64,000 bases of DNA from Verrucomicrobiia bacterium (lineage in GTDB: Bacteria > Verrucomicrobiota > Verrucomicrobiia > Opitutales > Cerasicoccaceae). Location: positions 1 to 64,000 of the forward strand of contig JAUIHT010000005.1 in NCBI GenBank assembly GCA_030432235.1, given 5' to 3'. Positions within the stretch are counted from its first letter, which is position 1. The number at the start of each line of letters is the position of its first letter. A program made the translations under genes and the position numbers. The notes below the pieces were generated by a model. It saw only the letters and a list, made by a program, of their open reading frames with translations. It was not told the DNA's origin and did no database searches. This document shows, piece by piece, positions 13,733 to 19,407 of this stretch.

Positions 13733-14083
13733 GTGAGTGAGTTTAAATATAAACCACGCGATTGCGAGCTGTGCGGCACGCCTTTCCGGCCACGCCGGGA
13801 GGAGGAGCATTTTTGCTGCAAGGGCTGCGAGTTCGTCCACGGGCTGGTTGGTAGGGCTGGAGCCGCGCCTGCGAGAGTGGTGAAAAGAGGCTGGCTGGGT
13901 TCGCGGTGGGTCTGGGCCGCCGTGTTTTTTATCCTGGCCGGCTTCAATACGCTGATCGCCGAAGTGATCACGTTTACCGAGCCCCGTGTTAACGGACTGT
14001 TTCGCCTGCTGGCCTTGATGTTTGCGCTGCTGGCTATCAGTTGCCTAGCGTTCGCAGGCAAAGGGGGACGAAGCTCTCGCTAA
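13733..14083 (+). CDS. Small metal-binding membrane protein (P-type ATPase N-terminal-like)
   Basis: 116 residues, with a GTG start. The N-terminus carries CELCGTPFRP and FCCKGCEFVHGL, the Cys pattern of the metal-binding domain that precedes many copper-type P-type ATPases. Two hydrophobic helices follow (WVWAAVFFILAGFNTLI and LLALMFALLAISCLAF). The ATPase body is absent, so this is either a stand-alone metal-handling protein or a domain left from a larger gene. Its 3' end overlaps the convergent gene by 47 bases. The GCAGAT palindrome ends 8 bases before the start. Confidence 0.65.
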   Translation: MSEFKYKPRDCELCGTPFRPRREEEHFCCKGCEFVHGLVGRAGAAPARVVKRGWLGSRWVWAAVFFILAGFNTLIAEVITFTEPRVNGLFRLLALMFALLAISCLAFAGKGGRSSR

Positions 14084-15128
14084 GCTGGTCCAGCTCCTCG
14101 TAGGCGGTCAGGCTTTGCACCAGCTCGCCCGGGATGTCCTCGACGCCATTAGCCGCGCCGAGCAACGAACCGATCAAGGCGCCGCGGTTGCAGGTCTCGC
14201 CACCTAGGTTGGCGTTGGCCAGCAACGCGGCCTCGGTATCGCCTTGATACTTGAGTGCGAGGAAGAAGGCCAGCGGCACGGCGTCGTCGGTGTCGGAGCC
14301 GTTGCGCAGGTGCCGGAAGGCGACTTCTTCGTCGGACTGGTTCGTGATCCAGCGGCGGAAAGGATAGTTGACGTAAGGGTGGGGGTGGTTGCGGCGCTCG
14401 CGGTCGAGGATAGTTTCCTCCAGCGAATAGCCGTCAAAAAGCGCCCAGTGGATGCTGCAAATCAGCTCCGCCGTGCGGCCAAGAGAGGCACCGGCATGCG
14501 TCAGGCTGAAGCGTTGCTTCATGGACTTGGCGGCGGCGACGGGATTGTGCCAGTTCAGCCAGGCCAGCGGCAAAGAGAGCGCCAGTGCTCCGGTGCGGGT
14601 CGATGACTCGGCGCAGGACTCCAGGGCCTTGCCGCGGGCGTAGTTGGAGAAAAACTCGCGGTAGGCCGTGGGGATGTAGGTGTCGCTGTGCCTGCCGGGC
14701 GTCAGCATGAAATCGAGAAAATCGTCGCGGCAGTGCTCGTCGTTGAATTGGCCGTCCTCGGTGATACGCCTGATGAGCAGGGTGGCAAGCTGGGCCTCGA
14801 GCGCGTTGTCGCCGGCCTTCAGATGCTGGTGGAAGTGGGTGCCGGGCCGCTGCCAGTCCGCCTCGCGGCCATGGAGAATATTGTTTTTCTCATTGATGAC
14901 CTCGTAGCGGGTACGAAAGAGGCTGCTTTCAGGGTGGGGGAACTTGGGCGCGACCAGCTCGCCGATCCAGCCGTAGTCCTTGAAAAGCTGACGGTTGGTG
15001 GAATAACCGTGGCCGGGCACCCCGAGCGCGTCCCCCAGGAAATAGCCCCAAAACGCACCGTAGAGCCGGGAAATCAGGGCTTCGTCGGCGGAGGGAGGCA
15101 AGCGGGTTTCTTCGGTTGAGACGGCCAT
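14037..15128 (-). CDS. ADP-ribosylglycohydrolase family protein, metal site altered
   Basis: 363 residues of the DraG/ARH all-helical fold. Family landmarks are GAFWGYFLGDALGVPGHGY near the N-terminus, NGSDTDDAVPLAFFLAL, and a C-terminal segment ending GALIGSLLGAANG. In active members the last segment opens GGDTDT, with aspartates binding the two Mg ions. Here residues 309-315 read GGETCNR, so the metal site is degraded, and removal of ADP-ribose from proteins is uncertain. The protein may bind ADP-ribosyl groups or act on another substrate. No ADP-ribosyltransferase is nearby. Confidence 0.82.
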   Translation of the reverse strand: MAVSTEETRLPPSADEALISRLYGAFWGYFLGDALGVPGHGYSTNRQLFKDYGWIGELVAPKFPHPESSLFRTRYEVINEKNNILHGREADWQRPGTHFHQHLKAGDNALEAQLATLLIRRITEDGQFNDEHCRDDFLDFMLTPGRHSDTYIPTAYREFFSNYARGKALESCAESSTRTGALALSLPLAWLNWHNPVAAAKSMKQRFSLTHAGASLGRTAELICSIHWALFDGYSLEETILDRERRNHPHPYVNYPFRRWITNQSDEEVAFRHLRNGSDTDDAVPLAFFLALKYQGDTEAALLANANLGGETCNRGALIGSLLGAANGVEDIPGELVQSLTAYEELDQLSESFVPLCLRTLGN

Positions 15129-15412
15129 AGCGAAAAAGGGGTGTTAAACGGCCTTGTTTTGAACTGTCACACTGATGTTATGACGCCGCTTCGGGTCAAT
15201 CAAGTGGAAAAGAGCAGAAAAGTGAGCTACGTTTGATTGACGGCCTCCCGGTCACCGCCTCAGTGTCATGTATTTAGCTAACACCTAATCACCTTGTCTA
15301 GTTACACTTTCTTATCGATTTCGCGACCGGTGCACGGTGCGGCCAGGGATTTTTCGCGATACATGGTACCATCCATGATGCATGCTATGAGCCACGAAGC
15401 ACGGAGGTTTTT

Positions 15413-16783
15413 ATGGACGTAGCCGTCGTTACCGGTGCGTCCTCCAGCGCGGGCCTGTCCGTTGCACGCAAGCTCGTCGCCATGGGCTTGCGCGTTTATG
15501 GCCTGGATGCGGATTTCACTAATTGCTCCTGGGAGCATCCCGAGTTCCAGCGGGTCGAATGCGACCTCTTCCGGCAGGAAAAGGTCGCACTGGCCTGGAA
15601 GGAAATCGTGGGGCGCGACCCTGGAGTCTCCATCCTGGTCCACGCGGCCATGGCCAAGCTGGAAGGCGCGCTCGAAGCCGCCCACCCGGATGACATCCGC
15701 CGTGCGCTGGAGGCACGTCTGATGGGTCCGGCCCTGCTGACCCGTTACGCGCTGCCACGCCTGATTCGTATTCGCGGCAGCGTCTTTTTCGTCAATCGCC
15801 GCGGTGGCAACGCAGTCTCGGCAATGATCGAAGGCGGTATCGCGTCCCTCACCGACGGCCTCTACGCGGAGGTTCGGGACACGGGAGTAAAGGTCAGCCA
15901 AATTGCCATTGAGGCGAATACCGAGGCCGGTGACGACGAAGGCCGCCACACCCGGATCGACCCGGATGCGGTGGCCGAGGCGGTGGAGTCCGTCCTCCGC
16001 CTGCCCGCGCACAACAGCGTCACCCGGCTTATCCTGCGTCCGCAGGCCACCCGTGAGGAGCCATTTGCCGCCGCCTCGACGCCCTTGCTCCGTTGGGGGC
16101 CGGATGAGGTTCGTCTGCCTGAGCCGGAAAACTTTCCGGAGGAACCTGAGCCTATTTATACACCGGAACGCCGTCGCCCGGCGGACGCCCCGCCGCCGGA
16201 AGAGGACGACGACGAATTTGAAGACGAAGACGACGAGCTGGACCGGCTGCTCGAAGAGTCCCGTCAGCGGCTGCGAAACCAGGTTGATCGCCAGCGACAG
16301 TCTGATCGTGGACGTCAGCAGAACCAGCCTAGAGAGCGTCAACAGGGCCAGCAGTCGGGGGGAGAGTCCGGCGATGGTGAAGGTCGCAACAAAAAGAAAC
16401 GCCGCCGTGGACGTCGTCGGGGACGCAATCGTAACCGTGATCGCGAACCAGGCAACGCAAGCGGGGAGGGTGGCTCTCCTGAGCAGAAATCCGCTGACTC
16501 CAATCAGCCCAGGCATGAGCATGGGGAGCGACCTGCAAGGGAGTCCTCTTCGGCAGAAGCCGAGCATTCCAGGCCGCGGGAAACGTCACCTGAGCCAAAG
16601 CCGGAGCCCAAGCCCAAAGAGCAATCGGCACCCGATACCGAGTCTAAGCCCAAGAAAAAGGTCGCCAGGAAAGCGGCCAAAAAAGCCGTGAAGAAGGCCG
16701 CAAAAAAGGCAGTCAAAAAAGCGGCCAAGAAGGCGGTTAAAAAGACAGCTAATAAAGAGCCCCAGCCGGAAACGGAAAGTTGA
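15413..16783 (+). CDS. SDR-fold protein lacking catalytic residues, with acidic, Arg-rich and histone-H1-like tails
   Basis: Residues 1-210 form a short-chain dehydrogenase-like Rossmann domain with VTGASSSAG at 6-14. Where active SDRs have Tyr-xxx-Lys, the sequence is SAMIEGG (136-142), with Ser and Glu at the two catalytic positions, so dehydrogenase activity is unlikely. Residues of about 262-282 are strongly acidic, 283-345 Gln/Arg-rich with KKKRRRGRRRGRNRN, and the last 40 are repeats of AAKKAVKKAAKKAVKK, like histone H1 or HU tails. Such tails bind nucleic acid non-specifically. I infer a nucleoid- or RNA-associated protein built on an SDR scaffold. It is transcribed alone, 41 bases before the next secreted-protein gene. 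Confidence 0.75.
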   Translation: MDVAVVTGASSSAGLSVARKLVAMGLRVYGLDADFTNCSWEHPEFQRVECDLFRQEKVALAWKEIVGRDPGVSILVHAAMAKLEGALEAAHPDDIRRALEARLMGPALLTRYALPRLIRIRGSVFFVNRRGGNAVSAMIEGGIASLTDGLYAEVRDTGVKVSQIAIEANTEAGDDEGRHTRIDPDAVAEAVESVLRLPAHNSVTRLILRPQATREEPFAAASTPLLRWGPDEVRLPEPENFPEEPEPIYTPERRRPADAPPPEEDDDEFEDEDDELDRLLEESRQRLRNQVDRQRQSDRGRQQNQPRERQQGQQSGGESGDGEGRNKKKRRRGRRRGRNRNRDREPGNASGEGGSPEQKSADSNQPRHEHGERPARESSSAEAEHSRPRETSPEPKPEPKPKEQSAPDTESKPKKKVARKAAKKAVKKAAKKAVKKAAKKAVKKTANKEPQPETES

Positions 16784-17489: not shown

Positions 17490-17927
17490 TCAGTCTTCGA
17501 AGCGGGTGCGACGATCGTCACGGAAGCTGCGACGACGATCCTGGCCGCCACCGCCTTCGCGATCACGGAAACCGCCGCCTCCTCCACGATTGAAACCGCC
17601 ACCGCCGCCGCGATTGAAACCGCCGCCACCGCCGCGATTGAAACCGCCACCGCCGCCACGATTGAAATCGCGCTTGGGGCGCTCCTCACGGGGACGCGCT
17701 TCATTCACTTTGAGGGGACGACCACCGAAGTCCGCGCCGTTGAGCGCGTCGATGGCAGCTTGTCCTGCAGTGTCGTCATCCATGGTCACGAAGGCAAAGC
17801 CCTTGGAACGGCCGGTCTCGTGATCCACGATTATCTTTACTTTGGCGACTTGTCCATATTCGCCGAATACCTCGGAAACGGTACTTTCGTCCGCTTCGTA
17901 AGGCAGGTTACCTACATAGATGTCCAT
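17490..17927 (-). CDS. Glycine-rich RRM RNA-binding protein
   Basis: 145 residues. An N-terminal RNA-recognition motif (residues 1-80) has RNP2 IYVGNL and RNP1 KGFAFVTM intact, as in small cold-regulated Rbp proteins of bacteria and plants. After KVNEARPREER comes an Arg/Gly tail with four copies of FNRGGGGG, encoded by a 24-bp tandem repeat at 17587, 17611, 17635 and 17659. It ends in a charged RRRSFRDDRRTRFED. It probably binds single-stranded RNA as a chaperone. The start is the ATG at 17927; upstream codons in the frame do not look coding. Confidence 0.93.
   Translation of the reverse strand: MDIYVGNLPYEADESTVSEVFGEYGQVAKVKIIVDHETGRSKGFAFVTMDDDTAGQAAIDALNGADFGGRPLKVNEARPREERPKRDFNRGGGGGFNRGGGGGFNRGGGGGFNRGGGGGFRDREGGGGQDRRRSFRDDRRTRFED
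17587..17668 (-). repeat. 24-bp tandem repeat encoding FNRGGGGG
   Basis: Four near-perfect units in phase with the reading frame of the RRM protein. Copy-number change would lengthen or shorten the glycine-rich tail by 8 residues. Confidence 0.85.
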
Positions 17928-18147
17928 TAGTCTTTTTATTGAAACAGGCGCCATGGTAGAAACGTACAGACGGGCCCATGGCGCATGAACCGACGGCTGG
18001 CTCTCTGAATTAGGCATCAGAAAAACAGTATTAAAATTTACTATTCCTGTCCGCCAAGCAACACAAATCTCAATGACTGGGCGGGAGTTGGGCATTTTGG
18101 GCTGGCCTGATGCACATAAAGCCTTCAAACAGGGGGCTCAATTATTG

Positions 18148-19407
18148 ATGGCCAGCAGTGATACCGATACCGAGGCTCTGAGTGAGCCTGCCGCCCCAGC
18201 ACCCGCCGCACCCCCAGGCGAGTCGGAAAAAAGCCCGATCCGGGACCTTGAGATTAAGGACGCCCAGATCATCTTCAACGCCGTCTGGGCGGATCTCGAA
18301 AACGAGTTCGGGAGGGAGAACCTGACTTTCCCGAGGGAGATTCTATGGCTCAACGGCGCGCCGGGTTCCGGTAAAGGCACCCACACCCGCACGGCCATGG
18401 AGTACCGGGACTTTACCGCCGGCCCCATCGTGGTCAGCGAGCTGCTGAAGAGCCCCGAGGCGCGCAAGCGCATTGATGCCGGTATGCTGGTGGGAGACCG
18501 TGAGGTGACGCACCTGGTCTTTTCCTCCCTGCTCGATCCGAAGTATGAGAGCGGCGTGGTGGTGGATGGTTATCCGCGCACCAAAGTCCAGGTGGAGTGT
18601 TTGAAGCTGCTCTACGCCAAGCTCAAGGAACTGCGCGCCGAGTACCTGAGCACGCTCCTGGCCGCGCGTTTCCCCAAACCTTATTTTCAGATTATCGTCC
18701 TCTTCATCGACGAGGCCGAGAGCGTCAAGCGTCAGATGATCCGTGGCCAGCGCGCCATGGAGCACAACGAGGAAGTGCGCCTCTCCGGTGTCGGCGAGCT
18801 GATGGAAATCCGCAAGACCGACCTCGAGGAAGAGGCCGCGCGCAACCGTTACCGCACCTTCAAGGACGTCACCTACGAATCCCTGAAGGACCTGCAGGAG
18901 GTTTTCCACTACCATTACGTCAACGCCTACGGCTCCATCGACGACGTGCGCCGCCGCATTATCAACGAGCTCAAGTATCAGAGCTCGCTGGAGCTGGAGC
19001 AGGCCACTTTCGACTGCCTGAGCCGCATCCCCGTGGCCAGCCGCATCATCCAGCACGCACGGCAGGAGCTGGTCCGCCGCCTCGATGACTATCAGGCTCA
19101 GGAGACCGACCTCTTCGACCGCGTGGTCACGATCGTGATGGAGAAATTCATGCCCATCGTCCAGCGGCATGCCATCAGTGGCTATGCCTTGGTCAACACC
19201 GAGGACCCGGTCTTCGACCATCCGCTGGCCTCGGCCATGCTCCTGGATATCTTTTCCGAACGCGGCTATCACGCCACGGTGGACGTGCAGCGCGAGGAAA
19301 TCCCCGAGAAAATAGATCCGAAGACTTTTAAGATCTATACACGGAATAAGAAAGTATTCCGGGTGCACGTACGCTTTTCCGGGTCGGAAATCCGTCGCGG
19401 CTATTAA
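18148..19407 (+). CDS. Adenylate-kinase-like NMP kinase with long C-terminal extension
   Basis: 419 residues from the ATG at 18148. A disordered Ala/Pro leader (1-30) precedes a P-loop at 70-78 (GAPGSGKGT), the NMP-binding segment [16 protein letters not shown], and VVVDGYPRT, all of adenylate kinase type. RQMIRGQRA supplies the usual arginines. Canonical enzymes stop near 215 residues; here an extra 150 or so follow ([18 protein letters not shown] to EIRRGY), with no motif I recognise. It probably phosphorylates a nucleoside monophosphate. The tail may regulate or oligomerise. Its stop abuts the convergent esterase stop with no spacing. Confidence 0.8.

Follow-up and report, generated by a model that had tools for sequence, protein, structure and literature searches.

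Proteins in which a folded N-terminal part carries a disordered, Lys/Ala-rich tail resembling histone H1 are known from Pseudomonas, where the tails of AlgP (AlgR3) and PhaF bind DNA or are thought to do so (accessible part of PMC9239181). The protein encoded at 15413-16783 of the window (the whole 64,000-nucleotide stretch that was analysed) has the same general layout. By description, AlgP and PhaF combine KPAA repeats with a helical N-terminal part, whereas the window protein combines KKAx repeats with an SDR, and its acidic and Arg-rich section is absent from the descriptions of AlgP and PhaF in the text available (PMC9239181). Lys-rich repeats are also a point of likeness with chlamydial Hc2 (PF07382), as far as the accessible text of PMC2848022 goes.

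For the folded part, the systems to compare are the classical SDRs (PF00106; the nearest NCBIfam models are PRK08219 and PRK07326), which are alike in fold, in the order of elements and in the T-G-A of the cofactor loop. The window protein differs from them by the replacement of the catalytic Tyr and Lys and by a 239-residue tail, and its NCBIfam scores lie far under the cut-offs (for PRK08219, 69.5 where 218 is required). Tic62 also extends an SDR core with a long disordered repeat tail; its ligand is ferredoxin-NADP reductase, and the tail is not known to bind a polyanion. Hc2, to our knowledge, has no SDR part, and SDR5C1 keeps its active site and is not known to carry such a tail. The likeness of human SDR5C1 (HSD17B10) lies elsewhere: needed by mitochondrial RNase P apart from its enzymatic activity, it is an SDR working non-catalytically in a nucleic-acid machine (PMC10602865, in the part accessible).

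The preliminary description of this DNA had seen in the protein a would-be nucleotide-sensing scaffold with a nucleic-acid-binding tail, and so a new kind of chromatin or RNA factor. This was too strong, because the AlgP and PhaF tails (PMC9239181) and SDR5C1 (PMC10602865) are already known from the accessible parts of these sources. A limited search of the open-access literature found no description of a dead SDR with an H1-like tail as a conserved family. As far as searched, non-catalytic SDRs and H1-like tails are each known and their combination as a conserved family is apparently new. The family is a well-sampled example in which selection has maintained an enzyme fold despite the loss of its catalytic pair and the gain of a disordered polycationic tail.

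An SDR core and its tail

The gene (15413..16783, + strand) is a single open frame of 456 amino acids that starts with ATG, five bases behind a Shine-Dalgarno-like GGAGG read in the sequence (15403..15407, + strand). Its translation and homologue matches define a pseudo-SDR with a disordered tail. The SDR (Rossmann) domain occupies residues 1-217 (15413..16063, + strand) according to Pfam, AlphaFold2 and PDB fold matches. Pfam adh_short matches residues 3-165 (E 6.7e-11, above the cut-off) and the AlphaFold2 model of the domain (217 residues, 26 alignment rows) reaches a pLDDT of 89.2 and a pTM of 0.87. Compared with solved structures, the modelled core fits 3rkr_A, an ordinary SDR, with a Z of 27.8 and an rmsd of 1.8 over 202 residues, and Foldseek places another ordinary SDR, 2jah (clavulanic acid dehydrogenase), first by E-value. 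The core is a classical SDR fold with the SDR order of elements. In the full-length AlphaFold2 model (pLDDT 68, pTM 0.49) residues 1-210 form a confident core, but pLDDT drops to 51 at 171-180.

What this core lacks is the catalytic pair. Where YxxxK stood, PDB and member alignments place S136-A-M-I-E140 (15818..15832, + strand). Ser136 and Glu140 had been proposed to stand in for the catalytic Tyr and Lys; the PDB alignment to 2jah agrees, and the two residues fall in the same columns when aligned with 14 SDRs that have an intact Tyr/Lys pair. We aligned 59 distinct tailed members, drawn from the part of the 81 matching genomes that was read and leaving out L037, a member of G151 without the N-terminal part. 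None of the 59 has both Tyr and Lys: each is absent from 58, L058 having Tyr only and L085 Lys only. The former Tyr column holds N, G, A, S, T, P, F, L or D, and the former Lys column E, A, D, Q, T, L, S or N. Six further members include four complete ones that are dead and tailed (tails of 211-263 residues), one with a dead site whose sequence breaks off ahead of the tail and one whose sequence breaks off ahead of the active site. Tyr and Lys are present in all 14 control SDRs (L071, L100 and 12 ordinary ones), which have no such tail and extend 9-70 residues past position 225. Thus the co-occurrence of Tyr/Lys loss with the tail, for which the preliminary description had looked to a survey of homologues, is borne out in these two sets. 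The outcome it named as refuting, homologues with an intact Tyr-xxx-Lys and variable tails, was not encountered, the intact relatives found being tail-less.

The dinucleotide-binding loop, TGASSSAG (residues 7-14; 15431..15454, + strand), is conserved in part across the 59 members: T7 is kept in 57/59, G8 and A9 in 59/59 each and G14 in 46/59. A Ser replaces the middle Gly of TGxxxGxG, which is absent from the window protein and kept in 13/59 tailed members. The NNAG motif and the catalytic Ser and Asn are relaxed across tailed members, and the conserved core positions include R111, L114, L117, L150 and R155 (helices E and F) together with G122, G158 and P210.

Behind the core, all on the + strand, lies a linker (about residues 229-262; 16097..16198), delimited by alignments and with a mean pLDDT of 64-78 for residues 231-260. 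Its motif, LPxxxxFPEEPEPIxTPxRxRPxDAPPP, is common to the window protein and its closest relatives in the alignments. An acidic block read from the translation (about residues 263-299; 16199..16309) leads into a helix, which the full-length model places at 270-299 within the acidic region. Then come an Arg-rich block, NKKKRRRGRRRGRNRNRDRE (residues 326-345; 16388..16447; translation), and H1-like Lys/Ala repeats (residues 412-444; 16646..16744; translation and alignment), both disordered in the AlphaFold2 model. The translation thus contains the acidic block as well as the RRRGRRRGRNRNRDR block and the KKAVKKAAKKAVKK end that were first described. The C-terminal half, said at the time to be disordered, is so for nearly all of 302-456 (pLDDT below 50 nearly throughout) and is not so for the helix at 270-299 or for residues 231-260, which AlphaFold2 models with middling confidence.

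Four members cut by a sequence end were excluded from the tail counts. In the 55 members complete at the 3' end, the tail measures 104-515 residues (median 291). Its last 60 residues are net positive in 54/55 (median charge +18), and the net charge of the whole tail is zero or negative in 7/55; in L098 (G528) the tail is short and does not end in a basic stretch. An H1-like Lys/Ala block, defined as 18 or more K/A in 30, occurs in 32/55 complete members and is missing in 23/55. The AKKAVKK-type, H1-like end is real in the window protein, where the translation contains it and the model leaves it disordered, and does not extend to the family as a whole. Pfam HC2 (histone H1-like nucleoprotein) matches 2/17 members, at best with 8.2e-7, and PF07382 gave no match to the window protein at E <= 1. 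At the DNA level the tail is not one long clean repeat (tandem-repeat scores 30-93, matches 69-90%).

Two other ideas about the tail were set aside. A generic tail of the organism was rejected because its own genome, searched with the tail, returned the protein itself alone among 68 scored candidates (E <= 1), although others might be masked by composition bias, and because none of the six window frames contains a second Lys/Ala tail. An AT-hook switch was considered for the RGRPPK/RGRPSK-type ends of L102 and L103; yet [RK]GRP occurs 5 times in the 59 tails against a shuffled expectation of 2.4, and we make no claim. As a side observation, L010 (G046) and L032 (G225) have tails that are 95% identical and SDR domains that are 84% identical, and L031 (G384) and L032 have SDR domains that are 95% identical and tails that are 58% identical. 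Because tail and SDR identities disagree among these three genomes, tails seem to have been exchanged by recombination between these members.

Distribution and history of the family

A first survey gave a match in 17/54 genomes, the window's own included (E <= 1e-10). At E <= 1e-33 the family profile matches 81/372 genomes and 29/100 genera of the order (records titled Opitutales/Puniceicoccales); one of the 81, G439, has the intact tail-less form only. Across 384 genomes of the class, family matches of at least 148.9 bits all lie within the same order, the intact relative on G029 contig 147 scoring 144 bits and the best SDR from another order 107.6 bits. A single-sequence search of named genomes found no relative.

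In a tree of 55 rows (IQ-TREE, LG+C20), which is unrooted, has some long branches and drew a program warning of long-branch joins, the 41 tailed rows form one clan with a support of 100/97. The opposite side holds 12 ordinary SDRs and two intact SPL-linked SDRs. These two, tail-less with YxxxK and lying beside an SPL-like gene, are the nearest intact relatives found (L071:2149-2889, - strand; L100:1319-2095, + strand). Because the tailed rows form one clan, the loss of Tyr and Lys and the tail probably go back to a single ancestral state and did not arise together many times over. Within the limits of the tree, the simplest history would be a single loss of catalysis and a single gain of a tail, kept long. 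The Tyr without Lys in L058 hints that Lys may have been lost first.

Pairwise NG86 comparisons, in pairs that share sequences and so are not independent and with several dS above 1.5, give a dN/dS of 0.025-0.166 for the SDR part (10/12 pairs with dS estimable). For the tail, where repeat alignments are uncertain, the values are 0.10-0.44 in 9/12 pairs. In the measured pairs, purifying selection thus acts on the SDR core; the window gene and its nearest relative (64% identity) are too diverged for an estimate. A frameshift joining two genes, the other refuting outcome named at the start, was not seen: there is one intact frame, and fused homologues occur in many genomes. We reject a pseudogene or frameshift fusion, because 55 distinct complete members all retain the fusion of core and tail and because of this selection on the core in the measured pairs.

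An SPL-like partner gene

An SPL-like (spore-photoproduct-lyase-like) match is also present in 17/81 family genomes, and in 14 of those 17 the family gene lies directly 3' of the SPL-like radical SAM gene on the same strand. By match coordinates, 12 of the 14 pairs overlap by exactly 7 bases, with the family ATG inside the end of the SPL-like gene, and the gaps in the other two are 20 and 598. Twelve of the 14 linked family genes are complete, dead and tailed; in G457 the site is dead and the sequence breaks off ahead of the tail, and in G426 it breaks off ahead of the active site. In G029 and G439 an intact tail-less SDR stands behind the SPL-like gene, with gaps of 17 and 26. G029 has a dead tailed copy as well, on another contig, and in G020 the SPL-like gene and the family gene are on separate contigs. 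With such intact relatives, free of a tail, next to a partner gene of this type, it becomes possible to test in which order the changes arose.

No SPL-like match was found at E <= 1e-40 in 64/81 family genomes, the window's included, and the family is without a match in 45 of the 62 genomes that have an SPL-like one. Where a strong SPL-like locus lacks the SDR, a different gene comes next in the 17 cases read, and by likeness it is miaB-like in 8. At E <= 1e-70 the 384 genomes of the class contain 8 SPL-like matches, all in the same order and none outside it.

Six SPL-like genes, divergent members of the SPL family of radical SAM genes, are located at L052:7820-8857, L059:8061-9080, L063:10111-11142, L064:9672-10682, L065:7291-8367 and L066:10134-11327. 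Pfam SPL matches the partner above its cut-off in 4/4 tested (E 3.5e-17 to 3.8e-21), and the score is below the cut-off of NCBIfam TIGR04070 in 4/4 tested partner proteins. The CxxxCxxC radical SAM motif is found in 6/6 SPL-like proteins. The H-atom donor of SPL is a Cys (C140/C141; PMC5368176, in the part accessible). Alignment to Geobacillus SPL shows no Cys in the corresponding segment of 5/6 SPL-like proteins, L064 having one. With the donor missing from these five, it is doubtful that the genes encode true spore-photoproduct lyases, and the partner may carry out a reaction different from spore photoproduct repair.

The operon often opens with a nucleosidase-like gene (PNP_UDP_1 by Pfam in the one tested, by likeness in the others), whose product could recycle 5'-deoxyadenosine. 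In several relatives the wider locus includes miaB and genes for guanylate kinase and a HAD phosphatase, of which a single example apiece was tested with Pfam, and also recA, which was recognised by eye and occurs in 6/20 neighbourhoods. In G020, the tailed SDR gene is followed after 75 bp by an SMC gene (L058:4690-8385, - strand). ClpX-, McsA- and McsB-like proteins, recognised by eye, are encoded near another tailed SDR gene, on the opposite strand (L057:11692-14857, + strand). A defence system was also considered and rejected: PADLOC gave no match for the window protein, the intact L071 SDR or the L052 SPL-like gene.

What the tail may bind

To explain these observations we propose, tentatively, that this conserved Opitutales/Puniceicoccales family is a former SDR turned into an oligomeric non-catalytic scaffold, with a tail that binds a polyanion, most likely chromosomal DNA. 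By comparison with other SDRs, the core would oligomerise through its conserved helices E and F, and the T-G-A loop might still hold a dinucleotide. The acidic helix would serve as a spacer or a protein contact, and the Arg-rich and Lys/Ala ends would bind the polyanion. Such an oligomer could act as a multivalent nucleoid-associated tether, as thought for the AlgP and PhaF tails. We envision that the scaffold first served an enzyme of the same operon and later acted without it, as it would in the window's genome.

DNA is our preferred candidate for the ligand of the tail, RNA or another polyanion being possible. We prefer it because the tail most often ends in an H1-like stretch, a feature of AlgP and PhaF too, because recA, SPL-family and (in one genome) SMC genes adjoin, and because the HC2 nucleoprotein model matches some members. 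Several findings count against a DNA scaffold: the SPL-like partner mostly has no H-donor Cys and so may not act on DNA; most family genomes have no SPL-like match; the H1-like block is missing from 23 complete tails and the tail charge is not positive in seven; and miaB, a tRNA-modification gene, adjoins the locus in several relatives. For Verrucomicrobiota, the family supplies a concrete candidate for a nucleoid- or RNA-associated protein of an unstudied kind.

RNA-binding proteins can carry RGR-rich blocks, and RNA is the main rival to DNA as the ligand. The dead SDR core and its RGR-rich tail might hold tRNA or mRNA, much as SDR5C1 offers a precedent in mitochondrial RNase P (PMC10602865, accessible part). 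The window protein has an Arg-rich RGR block, the locus abuts a tRNA-modification radical SAM gene, miaB, in several relatives, and about 0.7 kb past the 3' end of the gene the window encodes a protein with an RRM (Pfam RRM_1) and a GGGGFNRGGG-repeat tail (17490-18128, - strand). We nevertheless consider an RNA scaffold rather unlikely, since the gene overlapped in the 14 SPL-linked cases is SPL-like and not miaB, the commonest tail end is H1-like (32/55) and not RGG-type, and the RRM gene of the window is in no gene cluster common with the regions of 19 relatives. With an SPL-like gene immediately 5' and in the same orientation in 14 family and two intact cases, and with the 7-base overlap in 12/14, the protein could also be solely an accessory subunit of the SPL-like enzyme, its core binding the enzyme and its tail delivering it to a nucleic-acid substrate, with unlinked copies serving other partners. 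This is unlikely in view of the 64/81 family genomes, the window's among them, without an SPL-like match, of the 45/62 SPL-like genomes without the family, and of the 17 strong loci at which another gene follows, miaB-like in 8.

That the protein is still an enzyme, using other residues or acting on a substrate that needs no Tyr and Lys, with the tail merely localising it, would accord with the purifying selection on the core, the conserved T-G-A loop and the Tyr of one member and the Lys of another. But both catalytic columns vary freely with no substituted pair, and the catalytic Ser and Asn vary too, which makes residual catalysis very doubtful. Equally improbable is a granule or polyphosphate tether of the AlgP/PhaF kind, with the core docked on a granule or enzyme and the tail on the nucleoid or polyphosphate. 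AlgP and PhaF do join H1-like KPAA tails to an unrelated N-terminal part and affect the positioning of polyphosphate or PHA granules (PMC9239181, accessible text), but nothing in our data points to granules.

A bolder form of the preferred DNA-scaffold reading would have a counterpart in kind in the CtBP-type dehydrogenase co-repressors. The protein would then be a nucleoid protein derived from a dehydrogenase and, by retaining NAD(P) binding, would couple cellular redox state to chromosome packing or DNA repair, with forerunner-like tail-less forms extant. We regard this as improbable. If the core does still bind NAD(P), it would directly link redox state and nucleic-acid organisation in bacteria.

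Two other neighbours complete the picture of the window around this gene. An ADP-ribosylglycohydrolase-family protein (Pfam) is encoded divergently at 14037-15128 (- strand), and its gene is in no gene cluster common with the relatives' regions. On the other side, 18073-19407 (+ strand) encodes a 444-residue protein with an adenylate-kinase-like domain (Pfam ADK, 94-184) and a long further C-terminal part.
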